DNA from: Desulfobacterales bacterium
GTDB lineage: Bacteria; Desulfobacterota; Desulfobacteria; Desulfobacterales; Desulfosalsimonadaceae
DNA: 64,000 nucleotides
Assembly: GCA_018335195.1 (NCBI GenBank)
Contig: JAGXKN010000002.1
Coordinates: 1-64,000, forward strand
Reading direction: 5' to 3'
Every line of letters starts with the position of its first letter. The first letter of the stretch is position 1. A program made the position numbers and the translations under genes. Positions 30,915 to 62,022 of this stretch are shown one piece after another. The notes under the pieces are model-generated. The model did not search any database, had not been told where the DNA came from, and was given only the letters and a program-made list of their open reading frames with translations.

Positions 30915-32006
30915 ATGGTCAAAAAACGGATTTTTTGTATTGTTGCCGCGATCATTCTTATCGGCGGTCTGACGGTTTTGCTTCATGCGGGTTCCCAAGG
31001 GGATGCCGGAGACCGGAATAATCAGGACAGCCCGCAGATTCGGGCCTTTATTTACCATCATTTCGGCAAACAGGACAAATACCCTTCCACAAGCGTGTCT
31101 GTCAAACAGTTCAGAAGCCATCTGGAGTACCTCAAGAAGCATGATTACACGGTGCTGCCGCTTGGAAAGGCACTGGACCGGATGTATTCCGGAGGTGACC
31201 TGCCGGAGAAAACCGCTGTTCTCACCATTGATGACGGCTATCGGTCAATATGGGAAAATGCCGCGCCGCTGCTCGACGAATACGGGTACAAGGCCACCAT
31301 TTTCGTGCCCACCAGCAATGTGGGCGGCGGCAATTATCTGAGCTGGAAGCAGGTTGCCGGGCTTCAGGAAAAGGGGCATGAAATCGGCAATCACTCCAAT
31401 TCCCATGGTTATTTTTTAAATTCCGACCCGGGCGAAATCGGGGAAGCATTTGAAGCCGACCTGAAAAAGGCGCACGATTTATTCCGGCGGCATTTGGGCG
31501 AAGTGCCGGACCTGTACGCCTATCCGTTCGGCGAATACCATCCAGAGATGTTTGCGGTGCTGGAAAAATACGGCTACCGGGCCGCGGCCGCCCAGAAATC
31601 CGGCGTGATTTACCGGGGAAGTGAAAAATTTGCCTTGCCCCGCTTTCCCATGAACCTCCATTACGCGGAAATGGACAGTTTCACGGAAAAACTCCGCATG
31701 AACGCCCTGCCGGTGGCCGGCGTCAAGCCGGAAAGCCCGATGGTTTCAGGAGAAAACCCGCCCCGGCTCAGGATCCAGGTGGCCGATTCCGGGATTGATC
31801 CGGGCGGCCTCCAGTGTTTTGTCAGCGGGCAAAAAAACTGCACGGTCAAACATTCCCGGCAGGACGGCGCACTTGTGATCCGGGTCCGGTCCCGGGACAA
31901 ACTCGATTCCAGAAGAACATTGTATACCATTACCGCCCCGTCTGCCGACCGCGCCCAATGGCACTGGTACTCGCATCTGTGGGTTGTGCCGGAAATCGCG
32001 GAGTAG
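30915..32006 (+). CDS. Polysaccharide deacetylase (NodB domain)
   Basis: A 363-residue protein with one N-terminal membrane segment (MVKKRIFCIVAAIILIGGL), either an anchor or an uncleaved signal. The NodB domain has the catalytic and metal aspartates in LTIDDGYRSIW and the metal histidines in GNHSNSHGYF. Such enzymes remove N-acetyl groups from poly-N-acetylglucosamine or peptidoglycan in the envelope. The C-terminal 110 residues are not recognised (beta-rich). The ATG at 30915 has AAGGG about nine bases upstream; the frame is open another 48 codons but with a second hydrophobic stretch that would be odd. It is divergent from the glucosaminidase gene, suggesting shared cell-wall work. Confidence 0.88.
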   Translation: MVKKRIFCIVAAIILIGGLTVLLHAGSQGDAGDRNNQDSPQIRAFIYHHFGKQDKYPSTSVSVKQFRSHLEYLKKHDYTVLPLGKALDRMYSGGDLPEKTAVLTIDDGYRSIWENAAPLLDEYGYKATIFVPTSNVGGGNYLSWKQVAGLQEKGHEIGNHSNSHGYFLNSDPGEIGEAFEADLKKAHDLFRRHLGEVPDLYAYPFGEYHPEMFAVLEKYGYRAAAAQKSGVIYRGSEKFALPRFPMNLHYAEMDSFTEKLRMNALPVAGVKPESPMVSGENPPRLRIQVADSGIDPGGLQCFVSGQKNCTVKHSRQDGALVIRVRSRDKLDSRRTLYTITAPSADRAQWHWYSHLWVVPEIAE

Positions 32007-34324: not shown

Positions 34325-35455
34325 ATGTGTCGTTTGGTCGCAATCACCAGTGAAACCCCGGTATCGCCCATGACCGCCCTGAACGCGCTGGACGTGATGC
34401 GCGAGGGCCATGACGGCTCCGGGATCGGGCTGTTTTTGCGGGACCTGGGCGGTCCGCTGGAGGAAATGAAAAACGAGCCCATTTTGTCCGGAATTTTCAC
34501 GGAAGAAGGCATCCGGCGGCTGGACAGCTATATGATTGATATGGGGTTTTTGACCAAGTACAAGATTTCCATCCGGCTGCCAAAGGTGCCGCCGCCGGGC
34601 GTGCCCAGGCGGGACATGTACCTGGTCCGGGCCTATGAGTATCCCGAGGAATGGGAGGACCTGCCCCAGGCCGAAAAAGAGGCCCGCCTGGTGACCGTCC
34701 GACTGGCCCTCCAGGAAATGGGCCGGGAAAAGGGGGACATGATCGTGTTTTCCTTCTGGCCGGATACCATCATGATCAAGGAAATCGGCGACCCCCTGAC
34801 CGTGGGCAAATACCTGGAACTGGGCCGGGAAAACTTAAACGCCCGGATCATAATGGCCCAGGGGCGGCAGAACACCAATTACGCCATTGACCTGTATGCA
34901 TGCCATCCTTTTTTCATCCAGGGCTTTTCCACCATGACAAACGGTGAGAACACGGCTTTCGTGCCGATCCGGGAATATTTGAGCTCCCGTGGGGAGCCCG
35001 GATATACTGGATTTTATTCCGACTCCGAGGTCTTCGTGCACATCCTGCATTACACTCTGAAACACCTGGGCATGGGCGTGGAGGCCTACAAGCACGTGAT
35101 CACCCCTCTGCAGGACGGGGACCTGGAAGCCCATCCCAACGGGGAGTTTTTAAAGCACATGAAGCGCACCTGCCGCAAACTGATCATCGACGGCCCCAAC
35201 TGCGTGATCGGCGTGCTGCCGGACAACACCATGTTCATGGCCCAGGACCGCAAGAAGTTGCGCCCCGGCGTGGTGGGGGGAAAGCCGGGCACTTACGTGT
35301 TTTCCTCCGAGATCTGCGGCCTGGATTACATTCTGCCGGATCGGGACAAGCACTCGGATTTTCAACCCATGCACCTGGATACGGCGGTCGTCAGACCCGA
35401 TCGCCGGGAGGTCGATATATGTCAGCAGATGCAAAGATTACCCCGTCTACATTAA
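34325..35455 (+). CDS. Glutamate synthase amidotransferase subunit (archaeal-type, class II glutaminase)
   Basis: A 376-residue glutamine amidotransferase domain made as a separate polypeptide. The mature nucleophile would be Cys2 (MCRLVAIT), and REGHDGSGIGLF contains the conserved class II loop. It releases ammonia from glutamine for the FMN subunit. In most bacteria this is the N-terminal part of GltB; here the large subunit is split as in archaea. GGGGA lies about nine bases before the ATG. The next gene starts 37 bases before this one stops, so subunits are coupled. A sigma-54 promoter lies directly upstream, so expression probably responds to nitrogen status. Confidence 0.9.
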   Translation: MCRLVAITSETPVSPMTALNALDVMREGHDGSGIGLFLRDLGGPLEEMKNEPILSGIFTEEGIRRLDSYMIDMGFLTKYKISIRLPKVPPPGVPRRDMYLVRAYEYPEEWEDLPQAEKEARLVTVRLALQEMGREKGDMIVFSFWPDTIMIKEIGDPLTVGKYLELGRENLNARIIMAQGRQNTNYAIDLYACHPFFIQGFSTMTNGENTAFVPIREYLSSRGEPGYTGFYSDSEVFVHILHYTLKHLGMGVEAYKHVITPLQDGDLEAHPNGEFLKHMKRTCRKLIIDGPNCVIGVLPDNTMFMAQDRKKLRPGVVGGKPGTYVFSSEICGLDYILPDRDKHSDFQPMHLDTAVVRPDRREVDICQQMQRLPRLH

Positions 35456-37053
35456 ATCTCAAGGACCTGCCGTGGCAGATCGCATGGAGCAGGGAAAAAT
35501 GCACCCTGTGCGGTCAGTGCACGGCGGTCTGCCCGGTCAATGCTATTGAACCGGGCGTGTTCCGCAAGCGGAGCGTGGATGTGGACATCAACGCCCCTTA
35601 CCAGTCCGGAAGCGGATTCAAGGTATATCACGGCATCCGCCAACGCACGGCGCCCGCCTATCACTGCGTGGGTTGTGGCATGTGCGCCATGGTCTGCCCC
35701 AATGACGCGATCATGCCTTATCGAAGCGACGAGGCGGACAAGCTGCGGTTTCATTTGGATCAGGGCGGCCAGCCCGAGCGGCGCGGCGGGCGGAGAAACG
35801 CGCCCGGCGGCGTGCTCGACCAGATCAAGTTCACCCGGATTTCCATGCTCACGGACCCGGCCCTGGATGCCGGCCGGCACGAGTTTGATATGCGCACCCT
35901 GCTCGGCCGCATACTGCCGCCGGAGCAGAACATGCAGCAGGTGCTGGAAAACGGGTGGATTCCGCCGGTGCGCGAAATCTATCCCCTGATTATCGGGGGA
36001 ATGTCATTCGGGGCGCTTTCTCCACCCATGTGGGAAGGCCTGCAGATGGGCGTGGCCTACCTCAATGAGGAAATGGGCATGCCGGTGCGTATCAGTACCG
36101 GCGAGGGCGGATGCCCGCCGCGGCTGCTGCGCTCACGCTTTCTGCGCTACGTGATCCTGCAGATCGCCTCGGGGTATTTCGGATGGGACGAGATCATCCA
36201 CGCTATTCCGGAAATGAAGGTGGATCCCTGCGCCATTGAAATCAAGTACGGCCAGGGGGCTAAGCCCGGAGACGGCGGCCTTCTGATGTGGCACAAGGTC
36301 AACCAGCTGATTGCCGCCATCCGCGGTGTGCCCATGGGAGTCAATCTGCCGAGCCCGCCCACTCACCAGACCAAGTATTCCATCGAGGAGGCCGTGGCCA
36401 AGATGATCCAGTCCATGTACATGGCCTGGGGCTTCCGGGTGCCGGTGTATCCCAAGATCTCGGGCACATCCACGGCCCTGGCGGTGTTAAACAATCTTTC
36501 GCGCAATCCATATGCGGCGGGCCTGGCCATAGACGGCGAAGACGGGGGCACGGGCGCGGCCTACAACGTATCCATGGATCATATGGGTCATCCCGTTGCA
36601 AGCTGCCTGCGTGACTGCTACCTGAACCTGGTCAGCCTGGGCCAGCAGAATGAGATTCCGCTGTTTGTGGGCGGCGGCATCGGAAAAAACGGCAACCTGG
36701 CGGCCAATGCCGCGGCCTTGATGATGCTCGGGGCCAGCGGCGTGCAGGTTGGCAAGTACGTGATGCAGGCGGCCGCAGGATGTCTGGGCTCGGAGACAAG
36801 GCGGTGCAACATCTGCAACATCGGGCTGTGCCCGAAGGGAATTACTTCCCAGGACCCCAGGCTTTACCGCAGGCTGGATCCCGAGGATGTGGCCCGGCGG
36901 CTCGTGGACATGTACGTGTCTTTTGATACGGAGCTGCGCAAGATCGTCGCGCCCCTGGGCCGTTCCACGTCCCTGCCCATCGGTATGTCCGATGCCCTGG
37001 CGATTTCGGACAAGGCGGCCGCAGACCGGCTGCAGATCAAGTATGTGGTATAG
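35419..37053 (+). CDS. Glutamate synthase FMN/ferredoxin subunit (archaeal-type GltB central part)
   Basis: A 544-residue protein. Residues 20-110 carry two [4Fe-4S] ferredoxin motifs (CTLCGQCTAVCP; CVGCGMCAMVCP). Residues 150-520 are the FMN-binding glutamate synthase domain (STGEGGCPPRLL; EIKYGQGAKPGDGG; DGEDGGTGAAYNVS) with the [3Fe-4S]-type cysteine set CNICNIGLCPKG near the end. It adds ammonia to 2-oxoglutarate and reduces the imine to glutamate. The ferredoxin part suggests electrons come from ferredoxin or from the next subunit. It overlaps the amidotransferase gene and is followed 55 bases later by the third subunit. Confidence 0.93.
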   Translation: MSADAKITPSTLNLKDLPWQIAWSREKCTLCGQCTAVCPVNAIEPGVFRKRSVDVDINAPYQSGSGFKVYHGIRQRTAPAYHCVGCGMCAMVCPNDAIMPYRSDEADKLRFHLDQGGQPERRGGRRNAPGGVLDQIKFTRISMLTDPALDAGRHEFDMRTLLGRILPPEQNMQQVLENGWIPPVREIYPLIIGGMSFGALSPPMWEGLQMGVAYLNEEMGMPVRISTGEGGCPPRLLRSRFLRYVILQIASGYFGWDEIIHAIPEMKVDPCAIEIKYGQGAKPGDGGLLMWHKVNQLIAAIRGVPMGVNLPSPPTHQTKYSIEEAVAKMIQSMYMAWGFRVPVYPKISGTSTALAVLNNLSRNPYAAGLAIDGEDGGTGAAYNVSMDHMGHPVASCLRDCYLNLVSLGQQNEIPLFVGGGIGKNGNLAANAAALMMLGASGVQVGKYVMQAAAGCLGSETRRCNICNIGLCPKGITSQDPRLYRRLDPEDVARRLVDMYVSFDTELRKIVAPLGRSTSLPIGMSDALAISDKAAADRLQIKYVV

Positions 37054-37108
37054 AAAAAAAGCTCGAATTTCGATATTCGAATTTCGAATTTTTCATAGAG
37101 GGGTGGAA
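37054..37108. repeat. Short AT-rich TTCGAA-type repeat between glutamate synthase genes
   Basis: The 55-base spacer contains tandem variants of CGAATTTCGA/TTCGAATTTCG, nearly palindromic. A ribosome site (AGGGG) follows. It may be a decayed small intergenic repeat; no function is assigned. Confidence 0.45.
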
Positions 37109-39481
37109 ATGACGGACCAGCAACGCTACCATCTGATATGCGGCCGGGAGGATGACATCCGGCTGGAATCCCGTGTGCTCGAAGAGCGGCTCCAGGATGC
37201 CGTGGCCCGTGGCAGCCGGCGAATCGAGGTGGAAGCCTGGGGCCAGCACGGCATCGGGGGCCGGCTTTGGCGCGCAGGCGACGACCCCCTGCACATCAGG
37301 GTAACCGGTCATTCCGGCCAGCGTCTGGGGGCCATGGGATTTCCCGGCACCCGGATTGAAAATATGGGCCCGGCTTCCGATGATGTGGGATGGCTCAATG
37401 CCGGGGCTGAGATCATCGTGCACGGCCACGGGTCAAACGGGGTGGCCAATGCCATGGCCCAGGGCAAGGTCTGCGTGGCCGGCAGCATCGGGGCCCGGGG
37501 CATGACCATGACCAAGCACAACCCGCGTTTTGCCCCCCCGGAACTCTGGGTGCTTGGGTCGGTGGGCGATTATTTCGGCGAATTCATGGCCGGCGGCGTT
37601 GCCGTAATCTGCGGCATCGAGGCCCAGACCCCGGGCAATATCCTGGGGTATCGGCCCCTGGTGGGCATGGTCGGCGGCAAGGTTTTTTTCCGCGGCCCGC
37701 ACGGCGGCTACAGCAAGAGCGATGCCAAGCTCATGCCCATCAGCGATGCGGACTGGCAGTGGCTCGTGGAAAACCTCTGGGAGTACCTGGAAGCCATCGG
37801 CCGGACCGAGCTTTATGACGAGCTGGCCGAGCGCGAACGGTGGCAGCTGATCACCGCGCGCACCCCGCAGGACAAGGTAATCCGCAAGACCCGTTCCATC
37901 TCCGAGTTTCGGCAGTCCGTCTGGAACCGCGAATTGGGTGCCGGCGGGCTGGTGGGGGACCTTACGGACATGGACATGAGCCCCATCCCGCTGATTACAA
38001 CCGGCGAACTGCGGCGGTTTGTGCCGGTATGGGAAAACCGGATGTATGCACCGCCGTGCGAGGCAAGCTGTCCCACCGGGATCCCGGTGCACGAACGGTG
38101 GCGGCTGGTTCGCGAAGGCAGGGTGGACGAGGCCGTGGACATGGCTCTGGCCTACACGCCTTTTCCTGCGGCGATTTGCGGATACCTCTGCCCCAATCTC
38201 TGCATGCAGTCCTGCACCCGGAACTCCGCATCCATGCCGTCGGTGGACATCACGCAGCTGGGGCGTGCCAGCATTGATGCAAAGGCCCCGGAACTGCCTC
38301 CTATAACCGGAAAAAAAGCGGCCGTAGTGGGTGGCGGTCCGGCCGGCATTTCCGTGGCCTGGCAGCTCCGGCAGGCGGGACATGAAGCTGTTGTTTTTGA
38401 CATGTCCGAACAACTCGGCGGCAAAATGCGGCATTTGATTCCCGAATCCCGAATCCCGAAGGAAGTGCTCGACGCCGAGTTCGAGCGCATCCGCTCCGTG
38501 CTTCCGCACGTAAATTTGCAGCAGGAGATGACCAAAGACGAAATCGAGCAGCTCAAGGCGGATTACGATTTCGTGGTGATTGCCGCAGGCGCGCGAAAAC
38601 CCCGCATATTGCCGGTTCCGGGCGTGGAGCGGACGGTTGCGGCAAATGATTTCCTGGCCCGGGCCAAGCGCGGGCGGATCGAACCGGGCCGCACCGTGGT
38701 GATCATTGGTGCGGGCAACGTTGGCTGCGATGCGGCCGTGGAAGCCGATCGCCTGGGCGCGGAAAACATCACCCTGATTGACGTGCAGGAACCGGCTTCC
38801 TTTGGCAGGGAACGCGAGCACGCAGAAGCCGCGGGTGCGAAATTCCGGTGGCCCTGTTATACCCGGGAGATTACCGAAGAGGGCGTGGTCCTGGAATCCG
38901 GAGAAGTGCTGCCCGCGGATACGGTGGTGGTTTCCATCGGCGACGTGCCGGACACGGAGTTTCTTCTGGACTCGGTGCAAATCGAAAACGGATTTGTCAA
39001 GGTCAACGCGCATTACCAGACCACGGATCCGAAAATTTTTGCCATTGGCGATATTGTCCGGCCCGGCCTGCTCACCGATGCCATTGGTGCGGGCCGCAAG
39101 GCCGCTGCCGCCATGGGCGAAATTGCCGGGGGCAGGCGCCCGGCTTCTGCTACCGGAATGGGCCCGGAATTGAATTCTGTCTCTGATGCGGGACTGCAAA
39201 TGATTGATACGTCCCGGGTTTCACTGGAATATTTTGATCCGCGGATTTCCGCCTTTTCCGGGGTGGAGCAGTGCGGCGCAAGCTGTGCATCATGCGGCAC
39301 CTGCCGGGACTGCGGCATCTGCGAGGCCATCTGCCCCAGGGGGGCCATATCCAGAAAACAATTGCCCGGGGCGGATTACGAGTACGTGGCGGATCCGGAT
39401 CTGTGCATCGGCTGCGGGTTCTGCGCCGGGGCCTGCCCGTGCGGGGTCTGGGCCATGCGGGAAAATGATCCGTTGAATTAA
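37109..39481 (+). CDS. Fusion of glutamate synthase GXGXG domain, GltD-like oxidoreductase and ferredoxin
   Basis: A 790-residue fusion. Residues 1-250 are the GXGXG beta-helix domain usually at the C-terminus of GltB (GAEIIVHGHGSNGVANAM; GSVGDYFGEFMAGG). Residues about 310-690 are the GltD small subunit: an N-terminal cysteine set (CEASCPTGIPV; CGYLCPNLCMQSC), FAD site GGGPAGISVAWQL and a pyridine nucleotide site VIIGAGNVGCDAAVEADRLG. The last 70 residues hold ferredoxin motifs (CRDCGICEAICP; CIGCGFCAGACPCG). The acidic IDVQ after the second glycine loop does not clearly favour NADPH. The ATG at 37109 has AGGGGTGG upstream. It passes electrons from NAD(P)H to the FMN subunit. Confidence 0.92.
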   Translation: MTDQQRYHLICGREDDIRLESRVLEERLQDAVARGSRRIEVEAWGQHGIGGRLWRAGDDPLHIRVTGHSGQRLGAMGFPGTRIENMGPASDDVGWLNAGAEIIVHGHGSNGVANAMAQGKVCVAGSIGARGMTMTKHNPRFAPPELWVLGSVGDYFGEFMAGGVAVICGIEAQTPGNILGYRPLVGMVGGKVFFRGPHGGYSKSDAKLMPISDADWQWLVENLWEYLEAIGRTELYDELAERERWQLITARTPQDKVIRKTRSISEFRQSVWNRELGAGGLVGDLTDMDMSPIPLITTGELRRFVPVWENRMYAPPCEASCPTGIPVHERWRLVREGRVDEAVDMALAYTPFPAAICGYLCPNLCMQSCTRNSASMPSVDITQLGRASIDAKAPELPPITGKKAAVVGGGPAGISVAWQLRQAGHEAVVFDMSEQLGGKMRHLIPESRIPKEVLDAEFERIRSVLPHVNLQQEMTKDEIEQLKADYDFVVIAAGARKPRILPVPGVERTVAANDFLARAKRGRIEPGRTVVIIGAGNVGCDAAVEADRLGAENITLIDVQEPASFGREREHAEAAGAKFRWPCYTREITEEGVVLESGEVLPADTVVVSIGDVPDTEFLLDSVQIENGFVKVNAHYQTTDPKIFAIGDIVRPGLLTDAIGAGRKAAAAMGEIAGGRRPASATGMGPELNSVSDAGLQMIDTSRVSLEYFDPRISAFSGVEQCGASCASCGTCRDCGICEAICPRGAISRKQLPGADYEYVADPDLCIGCGFCAGACPCGVWAMRENDPLN

Positions 39482-59338: not shown

Positions 59339-60985
59339 TCAGCTGTTTAAGATCTTTTTTGCACTTTCATCGTTGCTGTCGCACACGTGCGGGATGCCGG
59401 TGATTTCCGCGGTCTCGCGGTTGCCGGAAAACAGGTCCGAGCGCTCGATTTCGGGCAGGGAGAATTTGCGGGCCCCGGCCATGAGCTGCTGCATCCCGCA
59501 GGCCAGCTTATCTGAAAGGGTCCAGAAGGCAATGGCACCGTAGGGAATATTCTTCATTTCATCCTTGCCCACCTTGGCTTCCACGTCATAGTAGTTGGCA
59601 AAGATTTCCTCGGGCGTGCTCCCCAGCGTGCTGACCGTCTTGGGCAGCTTGTCCCAGTTGCCGGCAACCTTTTCCCTGCGGTCCGGGTTGACTGCGCCCT
59701 CGATGTTTGCGCCCAGAAATCCGGGGATCATGATGGCCCGTCCCATGCAGACCAGCTTGGTGTAGGGCGCCCCCAGGGCAACGGCCTTGAAGATATGATC
59801 CTCCAGGGCGAGTCCGCCGGCAAAGGAGAGGTCCACGACATCCTCGCCCCTGGCGGCCAGGAGGCTGGCATATTCACGGGCTTTTGAATGCAGCTGCAGG
59901 GAAGGCACACCCCAGCTCTGCATCATGTTCCACGGGCTCATGCCCGTGCCGCCGCCGGACCCGTCAATGGTGAGCAGGTCGAGCTTGGCGTCGGTGGCGA
60001 ACTTGATCGCCATGGCCAGTTCCTCCATGCCGTAGGAGCCGGTCTTGAGCGAAATCCGCTTGAATCCCAGGCTCCGCAGGTAGTCCACGCTTTTCATGAA
60101 CTCTTCTCTGACCTGGTCCACCCGGCCCAGGTTGGTGGCGCCCAGGCGGCTGTGGCGGGCAAAGGAAGAAATGGAGCCGTGCTTGAAGGCCTCTTGGACA
60201 GACGGCTTTTCCGGGTCCGGGTCCACCACGTAGCCGCGGTTTTTCAGAAACAGTGCGTAATCCAGGCTGGTGACCTGGATTTCTCCGCCGATGTCTTTTG
60301 CGCCCTGCCCCCATTTGAGTTCCAGGATACACTTGTTGCCGTATTTTTCCGCAATGTATTCAGCCACCCCGTTGCGCGTGTCCTCCACGTTCATCTGCAC
60401 GATGATTGCGCCGTAGCCGTCGTTGTAGCGCAGATAGCTTTCAATCCGGCGGTCGAGTTCCGGCGCCTTTGTAATCCGGCCGTTTGCCATTTCCGATTCC
60501 CGGTCCACCCCGACCACGTTCTCGCCGATAACCACGGGGATGCCCACCAGGGAGGCGCCGATGGCAAAAGAATCCCAGTACTTGGCGGCCACGAAAGTCG
60601 ATCCCAGCGCACCGGTCATAAGTGGAATCCGGGCCTTGGTCTTAATTTCCCGGCCGAACTCGGTTTCCAGGCTCACATTGGGGAAAATGCAGTCATCCGG
60701 ATCATTGGAAAGGCCGGTGGAAAGGCCGTGTGAGCCGTAGGCATACCCCTGGATTCGCAGGGAATTGTAGGAAGCCCCCACGTGGGTGGTATTGTTGGCC
60801 CCGGCCGTGACGATGCCGAAGCTTCTGGGGTAAAGCAGTTTTCTGCCCACCAGGCTGGACAAAAAGGTCTCGCATTTGCCCTGGCAGTCGGCCCGGCACA
60901 GGGTGCACAGGCTGGATTCCGTGGGGTTGCCCCGGTTTGTGGTCCCTAGGACGTCGTTGTTTTTGGAAAACCGCATTTCCGTCAT
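59339..60985 (-). CDS. FMN-binding glutamate-synthase-family enzyme with N-terminal Cys cluster
   Basis: A 548-residue protein with the FMN-binding barrel of glutamate synthase (ILELKWGQGAKDIGGEIQV; TIDGSGGGTGMSPWNMMQ). It lacks an amidotransferase domain and the usual [3Fe-4S] cysteines late in the barrel; instead cysteines 27, 30, 34 and 38 form C-x2-C-x3-C-x3-C near the N-terminus, so an Fe-S cluster there is likely. It might use free ammonia or a separate donor; a different substrate is also possible. AAAGGAGG lies six bases before the ATG. Its leader holds an ANTAR-type antitermination element, and the GAF-ANTAR gene is directly upstream, so its expression is probably set by read-through. 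Confidence 0.88.
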   Translation of the reverse strand: MTEMRFSKNNDVLGTTNRGNPTESSLCTLCRADCQGKCETFLSSLVGRKLLYPRSFGIVTAGANNTTHVGASYNSLRIQGYAYGSHGLSTGLSNDPDDCIFPNVSLETEFGREIKTKARIPLMTGALGSTFVAAKYWDSFAIGASLVGIPVVIGENVVGVDRESEMANGRITKAPELDRRIESYLRYNDGYGAIIVQMNVEDTRNGVAEYIAEKYGNKCILELKWGQGAKDIGGEIQVTSLDYALFLKNRGYVVDPDPEKPSVQEAFKHGSISSFARHSRLGATNLGRVDQVREEFMKSVDYLRSLGFKRISLKTGSYGMEELAMAIKFATDAKLDLLTIDGSGGGTGMSPWNMMQSWGVPSLQLHSKAREYASLLAARGEDVVDLSFAGGLALEDHIFKAVALGAPYTKLVCMGRAIMIPGFLGANIEGAVNPDRREKVAGNWDKLPKTVSTLGSTPEEIFANYYDVEAKVGKDEMKNIPYGAIAFWTLSDKLACGMQQLMAGARKFSLPEIERSDLFSGNRETAEITGIPHVCDSNDESAKKILNS

Positions 60986-61072
60986 GGGATTCCTCCTTTG
61001 CTTTTTGAATTGGATGTAAGATTGTCTATATTTTATTATTTCAAATGGTTATATGATGTCCGCCCGCGGGCG

Positions 61073-61107
61073 AAAAAAAGCGCCTCTACAGCCTTGTATA
61101 GAGACGC
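61073..61107 (-). terminator. Leader terminator before the FMN glutamate-synthase-like gene
   Basis: GCGTCTC pairs with GAGGCGC (one G-T wobble) and TAC with GTA around a small loop, followed by a run of seven Ts (61073-61079). It lies about 90 bases before the start codon, downstream of a promoter, so it can act as an attenuator. Its 5' arm is shared with hairpin P2. Confidence 0.85.
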
Positions 61108-61157
61108 CATTGTCTTGAAAATTTATAAGTGTATCTTACACGCCATTGTGCAAGATA
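61102..61157 (-). promoter_or_regulatory. ANTAR target: two hexaloop hairpins (P1, P2) overlapping the terminator
   Basis: P1 (61132-61157) has a 10-bp stem (TATCTTGCAC with GTGTAAGATA, one G-T wobble) and the hexaloop AATGGC. P2 (61102-61115) has AGAC/GTCT and the same hexaloop AATGGC. Both loops have A at position 1 and G at position 4, the rule for ANTAR-bound RNA. The 3' arm of P2 (GTCT) is part of the terminator's 5' arm, so P2 and the terminator exclude each other. Confidence 0.82.
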
Positions 61158-61165
61158 ATTTAAAC

Positions 61166-61194
61166 TAACTAATAAGGGATGACAAATCTGTCAA
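61166..61194 (-). promoter_or_regulatory. Sigma-70 promoter of the attenuated leader
   Basis: Reading the minus strand, TTGACA (61189-61194) and TAGTTA (61166-61171) are 17 bases apart. The start point would be just before hairpin P1. The inverted repeat TGACA-GATT-TGTCA overlaps the -35 box and might be an operator. Confidence 0.6.
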
Positions 61195-61308
61195 GACTTT
61201 TTGTCGGCTTGCGAAAATCCTCCGGAAGGGGCGAATCTGTGGGTCCGATTTCCAAGTCGGATACCGAAACGGATGAAGCCGGATCTCAACCCGGGGTTTT
61301 CCCGGTGT

Positions 61309-62022
61309 TCAGTAGAGCTCTTCTGAAAGCAGGATCGCCTCGGCAATGCTGCGCATGGATTTTCTCGAATCCATGCTTTTTTTCTGAATGCGGCGGTAGG
61401 ACTCGTCCGCATCCATCCCGCTTCTCTGCATCAGGACCTCTTTTGCCCTTTCTACAAGCTTTCGGGTTTCGAGCTCTTCCTGGATGACCTTGGTCTTGAT
61501 GATCAGTTCGGAGTTGGATATGGCCACTGCCGCCTGGTTGGCCACGGTGGTGATCAGGTTGACTTCTGTATCAGTAAAATCATGGGGTTCGGCCGTGAAG
61601 CAGTTGAGCACGCCGATTACCCGTTCGTCGCGAAGCAGAAGCGGCACGCTGGCAAGGGACTTAAGGCCCAGGGAACGGGCCATTTCCTTTTCCTTGAACC
61701 TGGGCTCGGTCAGCACGTCCCGGACGATCAGGGGTTGCTTTTCAGAGGCCACGTGCCCCACCACGCCTTCGTTTATGTTCAGCACCCGGTCCTTGACATA
61801 GGCCGGCTCAATGGTCTGGGTGGCCTTGAGCCGGAGGCGCGGCGGGTTTTCGTTTTCCTCTATCAGCCACAGGGAGCAGATCTCCACGCCGGTCACCTTG
61901 GCCGTGACCATGACGATGAGCTTGAGGATCTCCTCCAAGTACAGATCCGAGTTAATGGCCCGGCTGATATCCATCAGGGCCTTGATGTATTTGTCCGTGC
62001 TGACTGTACCTTTTTGATCCAT
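61309..62022 (-). CDS. GAF-ANTAR RNA-binding antiterminator
   Basis: A 237-residue cytoplasmic regulator. A GAF sensor domain spans about residues 20-165 (ILKLIVMVTAKVTGVEICSLWLI; ASVPLLLRDERVIGVLNCF). The ANTAR domain covers about 178-235 (TRKLVERAKEVLMQRSGMDADESYRRI; SMRSIAEAIL), with the conserved helices that hold RNA hexaloops. No phospho-receiver domain is present, so the signal is probably a small ligand bound by GAF. It lies 323 bases upstream of the FMN glutamate-synthase-like gene, whose leader has a matching double hexaloop. The ribosome site is weak. A TTTTAAGTG-type repeat sits just before the start. Confidence 0.88.
   Translation of the reverse strand: MDQKGTVSTDKYIKALMDISRAINSDLYLEEILKLIVMVTAKVTGVEICSLWLIEENENPPRLRLKATQTIEPAYVKDRVLNINEGVVGHVASEKQPLIVRDVLTEPRFKEKEMARSLGLKSLASVPLLLRDERVIGVLNCFTAEPHDFTDTEVNLITTVANQAAVAISNSELIIKTKVIQEELETRKLVERAKEVLMQRSGMDADESYRRIQKKSMDSRKSMRSIAEAILLSEELY

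Follow-up and report, generated by a model that had tools for sequence, protein, structure and literature searches.

The DNA analyzed in the current study (the window, 64,000 nucleotides from a Desulfobacterales bacterium) carries, on its minus strand, a gene for a protein with GAF and ANTAR domains (GAF-ANTAR), followed by a gene for an FMN glutamate-synthase-like enzyme. An earlier note on this DNA had placed, in the 323 bases between these genes, two hairpins with identical AATGGC hexaloops (P1 and P2) and an intrinsic terminator with a T7 tract overlapping the second hairpin, all at 61073-61157. These coordinates were exact, as was the length of the intergenic stretch (61308-60986), and a script recheck recovered both hairpins on the minus strand (61157-61073). 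The terminator is present as well. Since its 5' arm is formed by the loop and the 3' strand of P2, P2 and the terminator are mutually exclusive. The features are listed in table 1.

Table 1. Features of the leader and the genes on either side of it, in the order of transcription.
Feature	Position in the window	Strand	Evidence or remark
GAF-ANTAR protein gene, 237 aa	61309..62022	-	Pfam GAF 1.7e-23, ANTAR 2.8e-19
Likely promoter: TTGACA, 17-nt spacer, weak -10 TAGTTA	61166..61194	-	TTGACA 61194-61189, TAGTTA 61171-61166
P1 hairpin, hexaloop AATGGC	61157-61132	-	10-bp stem including one G-T; covarying
Linker P1 to P2, 16 nt	61116-61131	-	script coordinates
P2 hairpin AGAC[AATGGC]GTCT, antiterminator arm	61115-61102	-	4 bp
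Intrinsic terminator, 12-pair stem and T7, 5' arm in common with P2	61073-61108	-	stem-loop 61108-61079, T7 61079-61073
AAGGAGG, ribosome-binding site for the enzyme gene; not part of the switch	60992..60998	-	read from sequence
FMN glutamate-synthase-like enzyme gene, 548 aa, presumed controlled gene	59339..60985	-	Pfam Glu_synthase 5.6e-14

An ANTAR target is recognized by two hairpins, each with a stem of 3 bp or more and a loop of six bases. The window leader has stems of 10 and 4 bp with such loops, the sequence of P1 being TATCTTGCAC[AATGGC]GTGTAAGATA, and both hexaloops carry A at position 1 and G at position 4. For comparison, 38 leaders (the window's included) were collected as pattern matches downstream of the gene in 90 fetched GAF-ANTAR loci; the loop-to-loop distance was 36 in the window leader and ranged from 25 to 62 in the set (mode 35). 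The T tract lies 75 nt upstream of the ribosome-binding site. A search of Rfam gave nothing at gathering scores anywhere in the window; at permissive thresholds, three matches at chance level appeared within 60700-61400. A plus-strand terminator-like hairpin with its own T7 (61353-61376) lies antisense to the GAF-ANTAR gene, at its 3' end.

The stretch 61165-61065 folded at -28.9 kcal/mol (z -3.5), and none of 200 shuffled sequences folded as well. In the folding computation, growing transcripts of the window leader formed P1 and P2 until the 3' arm of the terminator emerged. For the complete leader, P1 with the terminator reached -28.6 kcal/mol; P1 and P2 by themselves gave -14.9, and the best fold in which both persist gave -17.2. 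The window leader and the other 37 all have a terminator stem with a T run behind it, and the terminator belonged to the minimum-energy fold in all 38. When the RNA was cut before the 3' arm of the terminator, P1 folded in 34 of the 38 leaders and P2 in 26; the 12 nascent folds without P2 count against a reading of the leader as a switch.

The earlier note had also placed a promoter in the intergenic stretch. The pair in table 1 has a perfect TTGACA, but its -10 element is poor, the pair was read by eye, and a promoter scan preferred TTGTCA/TAAATT instead. The -10 of that other pair ends at 61157, and RNA would therefore start inside P1, whereas the pair in table 1 predicts a start just before P1. 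Among the 38 leaders, 18, that of the window being one of them, carry TTGACA within the 52 bases before P1, where mononucleotide shuffles would give 0.5. This makes a promoter directly upstream of P1 likely, though the hexamer was absent from the other 20.

GAF-ANTAR matched PF03861 with 69.1 bits (cut-off 27.3), and this was the only PF03861 match, and thus the only ANTAR-domain gene found, in a genome that is 99.7% complete. At E<=1e-30, 98 of the 194 order genomes carry a homologue, mostly with 60–80% identity. Eleven RNA contacts of EutV were listed, as given in a part of PMC8934654. The window protein shares six of them (R142, K143, K149, Y164, M172 and R175), and among 90 homologues these are kept in 89, 89, 88, 64 (21 others having F), 87 and 88, respectively. 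Of the other five, E160, R168 and R177 are replaced by A, Q and S, and K147 and N173 by R and D. Y209 and M217 correspond to the aromatic residue and the methionine with which EutV holds the hexaloop (Y164, M172).

The enzyme matched the Glu_synthase profile at positions 189-309 of 369 only, and searches of NCBIfam and of PDB sequences gave no match. Its structure model (mean pLDDT 83.1) resembled FMN barrels, including type 2 IPP isomerase and the glutamate synthase alpha subunit. It is not the only glutamate synthase candidate of this genome. A long GltB-type gene lies elsewhere, and the window itself holds a glutamate synthase operon of three genes (34325-39481, plus strand: a class II amidotransferase-like protein, a ferredoxin-FMN synthase, and GXGXG fused to a GltD-like reductase). 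No significant ANTAR element was detected at that operon. At L131, L135 and L163, from other genomes of the order, an element does precede this amidotransferase-like gene.

Conservation was assessed on the 38 leaders. The pattern that selected them demanded AC[A..G..]GT, and a base plus GAC at P2; A at position 1, G at position 4 and the closing pairs are thus fixed in this set. The remaining 52 of the 90 loci had no hexaloop pair within 1300 nt, some being short or having the element elsewhere. Of the 30 loci L094-L123, 21 were not located by the pattern and were dropped. Alignments A1, A2 and A5 comprised 35 (without L021, L044 and L062), 32 and 30 leaders, respectively. A covariance model built from 30 leaders, none of them from the family of the window (R3), found the window leader with 57.5 bits and an E-value of 1.1e-11 (such E-values are rough), the next-best match across the 64 kb having 8.7 bits.

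Covariation of the P1 and P2 stems, on which the earlier note had let its reading depend, was strong for P1, where six of eight counted pairs showed changes on both sides in the 35 aligned leaders, and gave no support for the nearly invariant P2. The score for both stems together was 0.462 against 0.184 after shuffling. Changes on both sides were seen in 67 cells, compared with 17.6 in shuffled and at most 31 in slid controls, and all but two of the 67 came from P1. The inner three pairs of P2 are invariant in the alignment, partly through the selecting pattern, and covariation is thus uninformative for this stem. In the terminator helix, 94.0% of cells stay paired. Further elements were drawn from model matches, 59 from 127 matches in the order (L180 being excluded as a training duplicate) and 41 from 83 in the phylum; a few of the 59 also adjoin GAF-ANTAR. 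The motif GAC......GTC at P2 was kept in 57 of the 59 order elements outside the training alignment, though the terminator needs no GAC strand.

The loop letters were also kept, as the earlier note had expected of homologues, the counts resting on matches from a model that favours these letters. Among the 59 order elements, position 1 was A in 53 P1 and 53 P2 loops, and position 4 was G in 56 and 58. In the 41 phylum elements the corresponding numbers were 34 (A) and 38 (G) for P1, and 37 and 40 for P2 (n=40). P1 loops missing one or both of these letters numbered 8 of 59 in the order and 9 of 41 in the phylum. The P1 loops of the order further had A at position 2 in 56, G or A at position 5 in 52 and C or T at position 6 in 48; in these predicted elements, the A at position 2 extends beyond the published consensus of the first and fourth positions. 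An exact pattern for the consensus element found 13 stretches among named genomes, of which 12 were titled Desulfobacteraceae, Desulfobacterales, Desulfatibia, Desulfaltia, Deltaproteobacteria or Thermodesulfobacteriota and one 'uncultured bacterium'.

One significant element was found in the genome of the window with models R1 and R2. Besides the leader, R1 returned just one 15-bit match, and R2, which lacks the terminator, 21 weaker ones. The best of these, L240 (20.8 bits, E 4.7e-4), lies inside an ORF and was rejected as chance; the others reached at most 15.5 bits. At L123 in another genome (G082:C238:31758-31840 and 31855-31933) two model matches stand in tandem, 14 nt apart, like successive attenuators.

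The co-occurrence of protein and RNA in related genomes, which the earlier note had suggested checking, was far above chance. Among 194 genomes of the order, 88 had both GAF-ANTAR and the RNA, 10 the protein only, 12 the RNA only and 84 neither (Fisher p about 1e-29, with relatedness ignored). In a phylum sample of 395 genomes, some of them from the order, the numbers were 61, 38, 12 and 284. No element was thus detected in 10 of the 98 GAF-ANTAR genomes of the order, nor in 38 of the 99 from the phylum sample. In L077 and L078, GAF-ANTAR and the glutamate-synthase-like gene are divergently oriented with the element still upstream of the latter, so that the pair is kept despite rearrangement.

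The genomes with RNA only deserve separate mention. In the order, an ANTAR domain was not found in 11 of the 12 (the ANTAR family control, which applies to the searches of the window's genome and of the phylum as well, gave a match in 0 of 14 named genomes). Six of the 12 are less than 90% complete; five of the 11 are at least 90% complete (G105, G083, G096, G107 and G170, with elements L155, L141, L177/L178, L176 and L122/L129, respectively). The RNA of L155 lies 141 nt from a contig end, and any upstream gene would therefore not be visible. These genomes are a real exception, for which missing contigs may account only in part; assembly gaps or a different partner are the candidate reasons. 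In the phylum, eight of 11 RNA-only genomes examined (of 12) had an ANTAR domain, and all nine full-length ANTAR proteins from five of these genomes were REC-ANTAR by Pfam (L227 and L228, translated in a wrong frame, and the fragment L234 being left out of the count), indicating that the RNA is common while the sensor differs.

Genes behind the elements were named by Pfam and NCBIfam scans of representatives and by BLAST to these; the unclassified ones (3 of 38, 4 of 59 and 1 of 41) are so in some cases for want of sequence. For the 38 leaders beside GAF-ANTAR (the window's included), the first gene was glutamate-synthase-like in 33, GdhA in two and unclassified in three. The other 59 order elements preceded 25 glutamate-synthase-like genes, 20 FlpD, four GATase-GXGXG, three class II amidotransferase-like genes (a name that is our own reading of a gene without family match), one GlnA, one GdhA, one CarA and four unclassified genes. 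The 41 phylum elements preceded 19 glutamate-synthase-like genes, seven FlpD, five cases of a gene without Pfam match near P-II, three P-II, three AmtB, two GlnA, one GATase-GXGXG and one unclassified gene. The earlier note had viewed the locus as a clean unit of sensor, target and enzyme. This fits the genome of the window, with its one ANTAR gene and one element, but relatives carry the same RNA before several other operons, and the locus is therefore better read as a member of a nitrogen regulon.

FlpD was followed by MetV or MetF in 18 of the 20 order cases and six of the seven phylum cases. This arrangement accounts for 24 of the 100 further elements, which suggests, at the level of gene order, that nitrogen status is tied to one-carbon metabolism. 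The exceptions are L173, which is short, and L176 and L211, where a long ferredoxin-glutamate-synthase-like gene stands behind the FlpD-type electron-transfer subunit and the element instead; this hints at an FlpD feeding electrons to a glutamate synthase.

A Geobacter nitrogen cascade, GnfK/GnfR, was reportedly described by Ueki and Lovley in 2010, and we take GnfR to be an ANTAR protein. As at the present locus, nitrogen genes would stand there under an ANTAR-type regulator, the difference being a two-component REC-ANTAR system in Geobacter and a one-component GAF-ANTAR here. The cascade is cited in PMC8164766, and the gene names GnfK/GnfR appear in a passage of PMC7962754. In our REC-ANTAR genomes, the same RNA model found elements before P-II, AmtB or a gene near them.

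The best known ANTAR systems are Enterococcus faecalis eutP/EutV, Klebsiella oxytoca nasF/NasR and Pseudomonas aeruginosa amiE/AmiR. According to the relevant passages of PMC3369931, PMC8934654 and PMC7496416, these share with the window leader dual hexaloops with A at position 1 and G at position 4, the overlap of P2 and terminator, an ANTAR regulator and nitrogen-related targets. They differ in the sensor, which is REC in EutV and NIT in NasR, and in the loop, to which the elements of the window's order add A at position 2, mostly G/A at 5 and C/T at 6. At 16 nt, the linker is also longer than in the eut leaders of E. faecalis (5-12 nt), in which a length of 14 nt sharply lowered induction; it falls inside the range of 2-25 nt applied to actinobacterial elements (PMC8164766).

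ANTAR leaders in front of glutamate synthase and further nitrogen genes have been published: passages of PMC3369931 predict them before glutamate synthase in Desulfotomaculum reducens and before nitrogenase units in Pelobacter carbinolicus; its predicted regulons include D. acetoxidans, and many nitrogen genes in other organisms. As in these regulons, glutamate synthase, glutamine synthetase, P-II and ammonium-transporter genes stand behind the elements found here; those passages do not describe the regulators, whereas here a GAF-ANTAR gene adjoins the leader, and elements often stand before FlpD-MetV-MetF. The word 'folate' is absent from the main text of PMC3369931 (as distinct from its supplementary tables). 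By the account in part of the same paper (2012), no GAF-domain ANTAR protein had been characterized until then, and a passage of PMC7496416 (2020) names PAL and NasR as the only characterized one-component ANTAR proteins. In searches of an open-access library, leaving aside the supplementary tables of PMC3369931, we found no description of this GAF-ANTAR protein with its target, of the extended loop consensus, of MetV-MetF as a target or of the link between nitrogen status and one-carbon metabolism. One paper, PMC6436200, mentions ANTAR, antiterminat- and methylenetetrahydrofolate reductase.

Taken together, the structure and conservation of the leader support its interpretation as a putative ANTAR target. 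With a probability of roughly 0.87, the leader is an antiterminator operated by GAF-ANTAR, which gates the glutamate-synthase-like gene, and relatives use the same pair for a regulon. Counting against this reading are the nearly invariant P2, the genomes in which protein or RNA occurs alone, the five EutV contacts that differ, the 16-nt linker, and the weak -10 element together with the absence of TTGACA from 20 of the 38 leaders. RNA polymerase would start just upstream of P1, and the folding computation predicts that P1 and P2 fold first in the emerging RNA. Once the 3' arm of the terminator has been made, the far more stable terminator would displace P2 by default, and the transcript would end before the enzyme gene. 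Active GAF-ANTAR, probably as a dimer, would bind the hexaloops much as EutV does, hold P2 and block the terminator, so that the glutamate-synthase-like gene is expressed; for these steps, homology and co-conservation are the guide. In relatives, the same protein probably controls glutamate-synthase-like genes, FlpD-MetV-MetF, GlnA, GdhA, CarA and other glutamate synthase subunits.

A rival explanation is a terminator that merely ends the GAF-ANTAR transcript, beside hairpins of no regulatory role. A scan of 60900-61500 found no other terminator-like site on the minus strand, and the window terminator would therefore end this transcript in any case. However, P1 and its loop, which such a terminator does not need, are conserved and covarying, and the same element precedes many genes away from GAF-ANTAR or on other contigs, which leaves this explanation very improbable. 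We give equally little credence to an action mainly on translation or RNA stability. For such a mode one can point to passages of PMC3369931 that report ANTAR-target matches near ribosome-binding sites without terminators, but here the ribosome-binding site lies well beyond the T tract, and the stem and T run recur throughout the leader set.

Somewhat more weight, if still little, goes to a conditional terminator that is thrown by a direct ligand, a ribosome or an RNA-binding protein other than the neighboring GAF-ANTAR. The RNA-only genomes speak for it: 11 of 12 in the order yielded no ANTAR domain, and the phylum elements that occur in REC-ANTAR genomes (nine proteins, five genomes) mean that the RNA is not tied to one regulator. 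Against it stand the association with GAF-ANTAR in both order and phylum, the 38 of 90 loci in which a hexaloop pair follows the gene, and the single ANTAR gene of this genome with its conserved RNA-contact residues, while the incomplete half of the order's RNA-only genomes and the contig end at L155 weaken the apparent exceptions. The antiterminator operated by GAF-ANTAR thus remains the preferred reading. With a GAF-ANTAR protein, a probable RNA target adjoining its gene and a list of further targets at hand, the signal of GAF-ANTAR becomes testable, and the same pair opens the control of nitrogen assimilation in these anaerobes to testing.

As for that signal, the best profiles for the GAF domain were PtsP and NifA, both far below the whole-protein cut-offs, and its structure model (mean pLDDT 86.6) was closest to 4mcw (an HD-GYP protein), followed by the PtsP GAF domains 3trc and 3ci6. 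Glutamine and 2-oxoglutarate are ligands of PtsP/NifA-like GAF domains. By analogy, the domain probably senses nitrogen status, e.g. through one of these two compounds, the choice of signal being a guess. A bolder and doubtful extension is that GAF-ANTAR, as a one-component protein that directly reads glutamine or 2-oxoglutarate, might be the main nitrogen regulator across much of the phylum, acting purely at the RNA level on glutamate and glutamine synthesis and on MetV-MetF as well, with recognition of an extended AANGRY loop, tolerance of long linkers and substitution by REC-ANTAR on the same RNA in other lineages. If so, nitrogen supply would be tied to a branch of the Wood-Ljungdahl pathway via MetV-MetF.

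A similar GAF domain was also seen outside GAF-ANTAR. In L187 (6556-8271) and L218 (5707-7101), a gene downstream of the glutamate-synthase-like gene encodes a histidine-kinase-like protein whose GAF domain is 54% and 52% identical, respectively, to that of GAF-ANTAR. NifA had been considered for the roughly 600-aa protein with a similar GAF domain and was rejected, as the two examples scanned (L187, L218) match histidine kinases. From sequence similarity, one sensor type may therefore feed both a kinase and an antiterminator.
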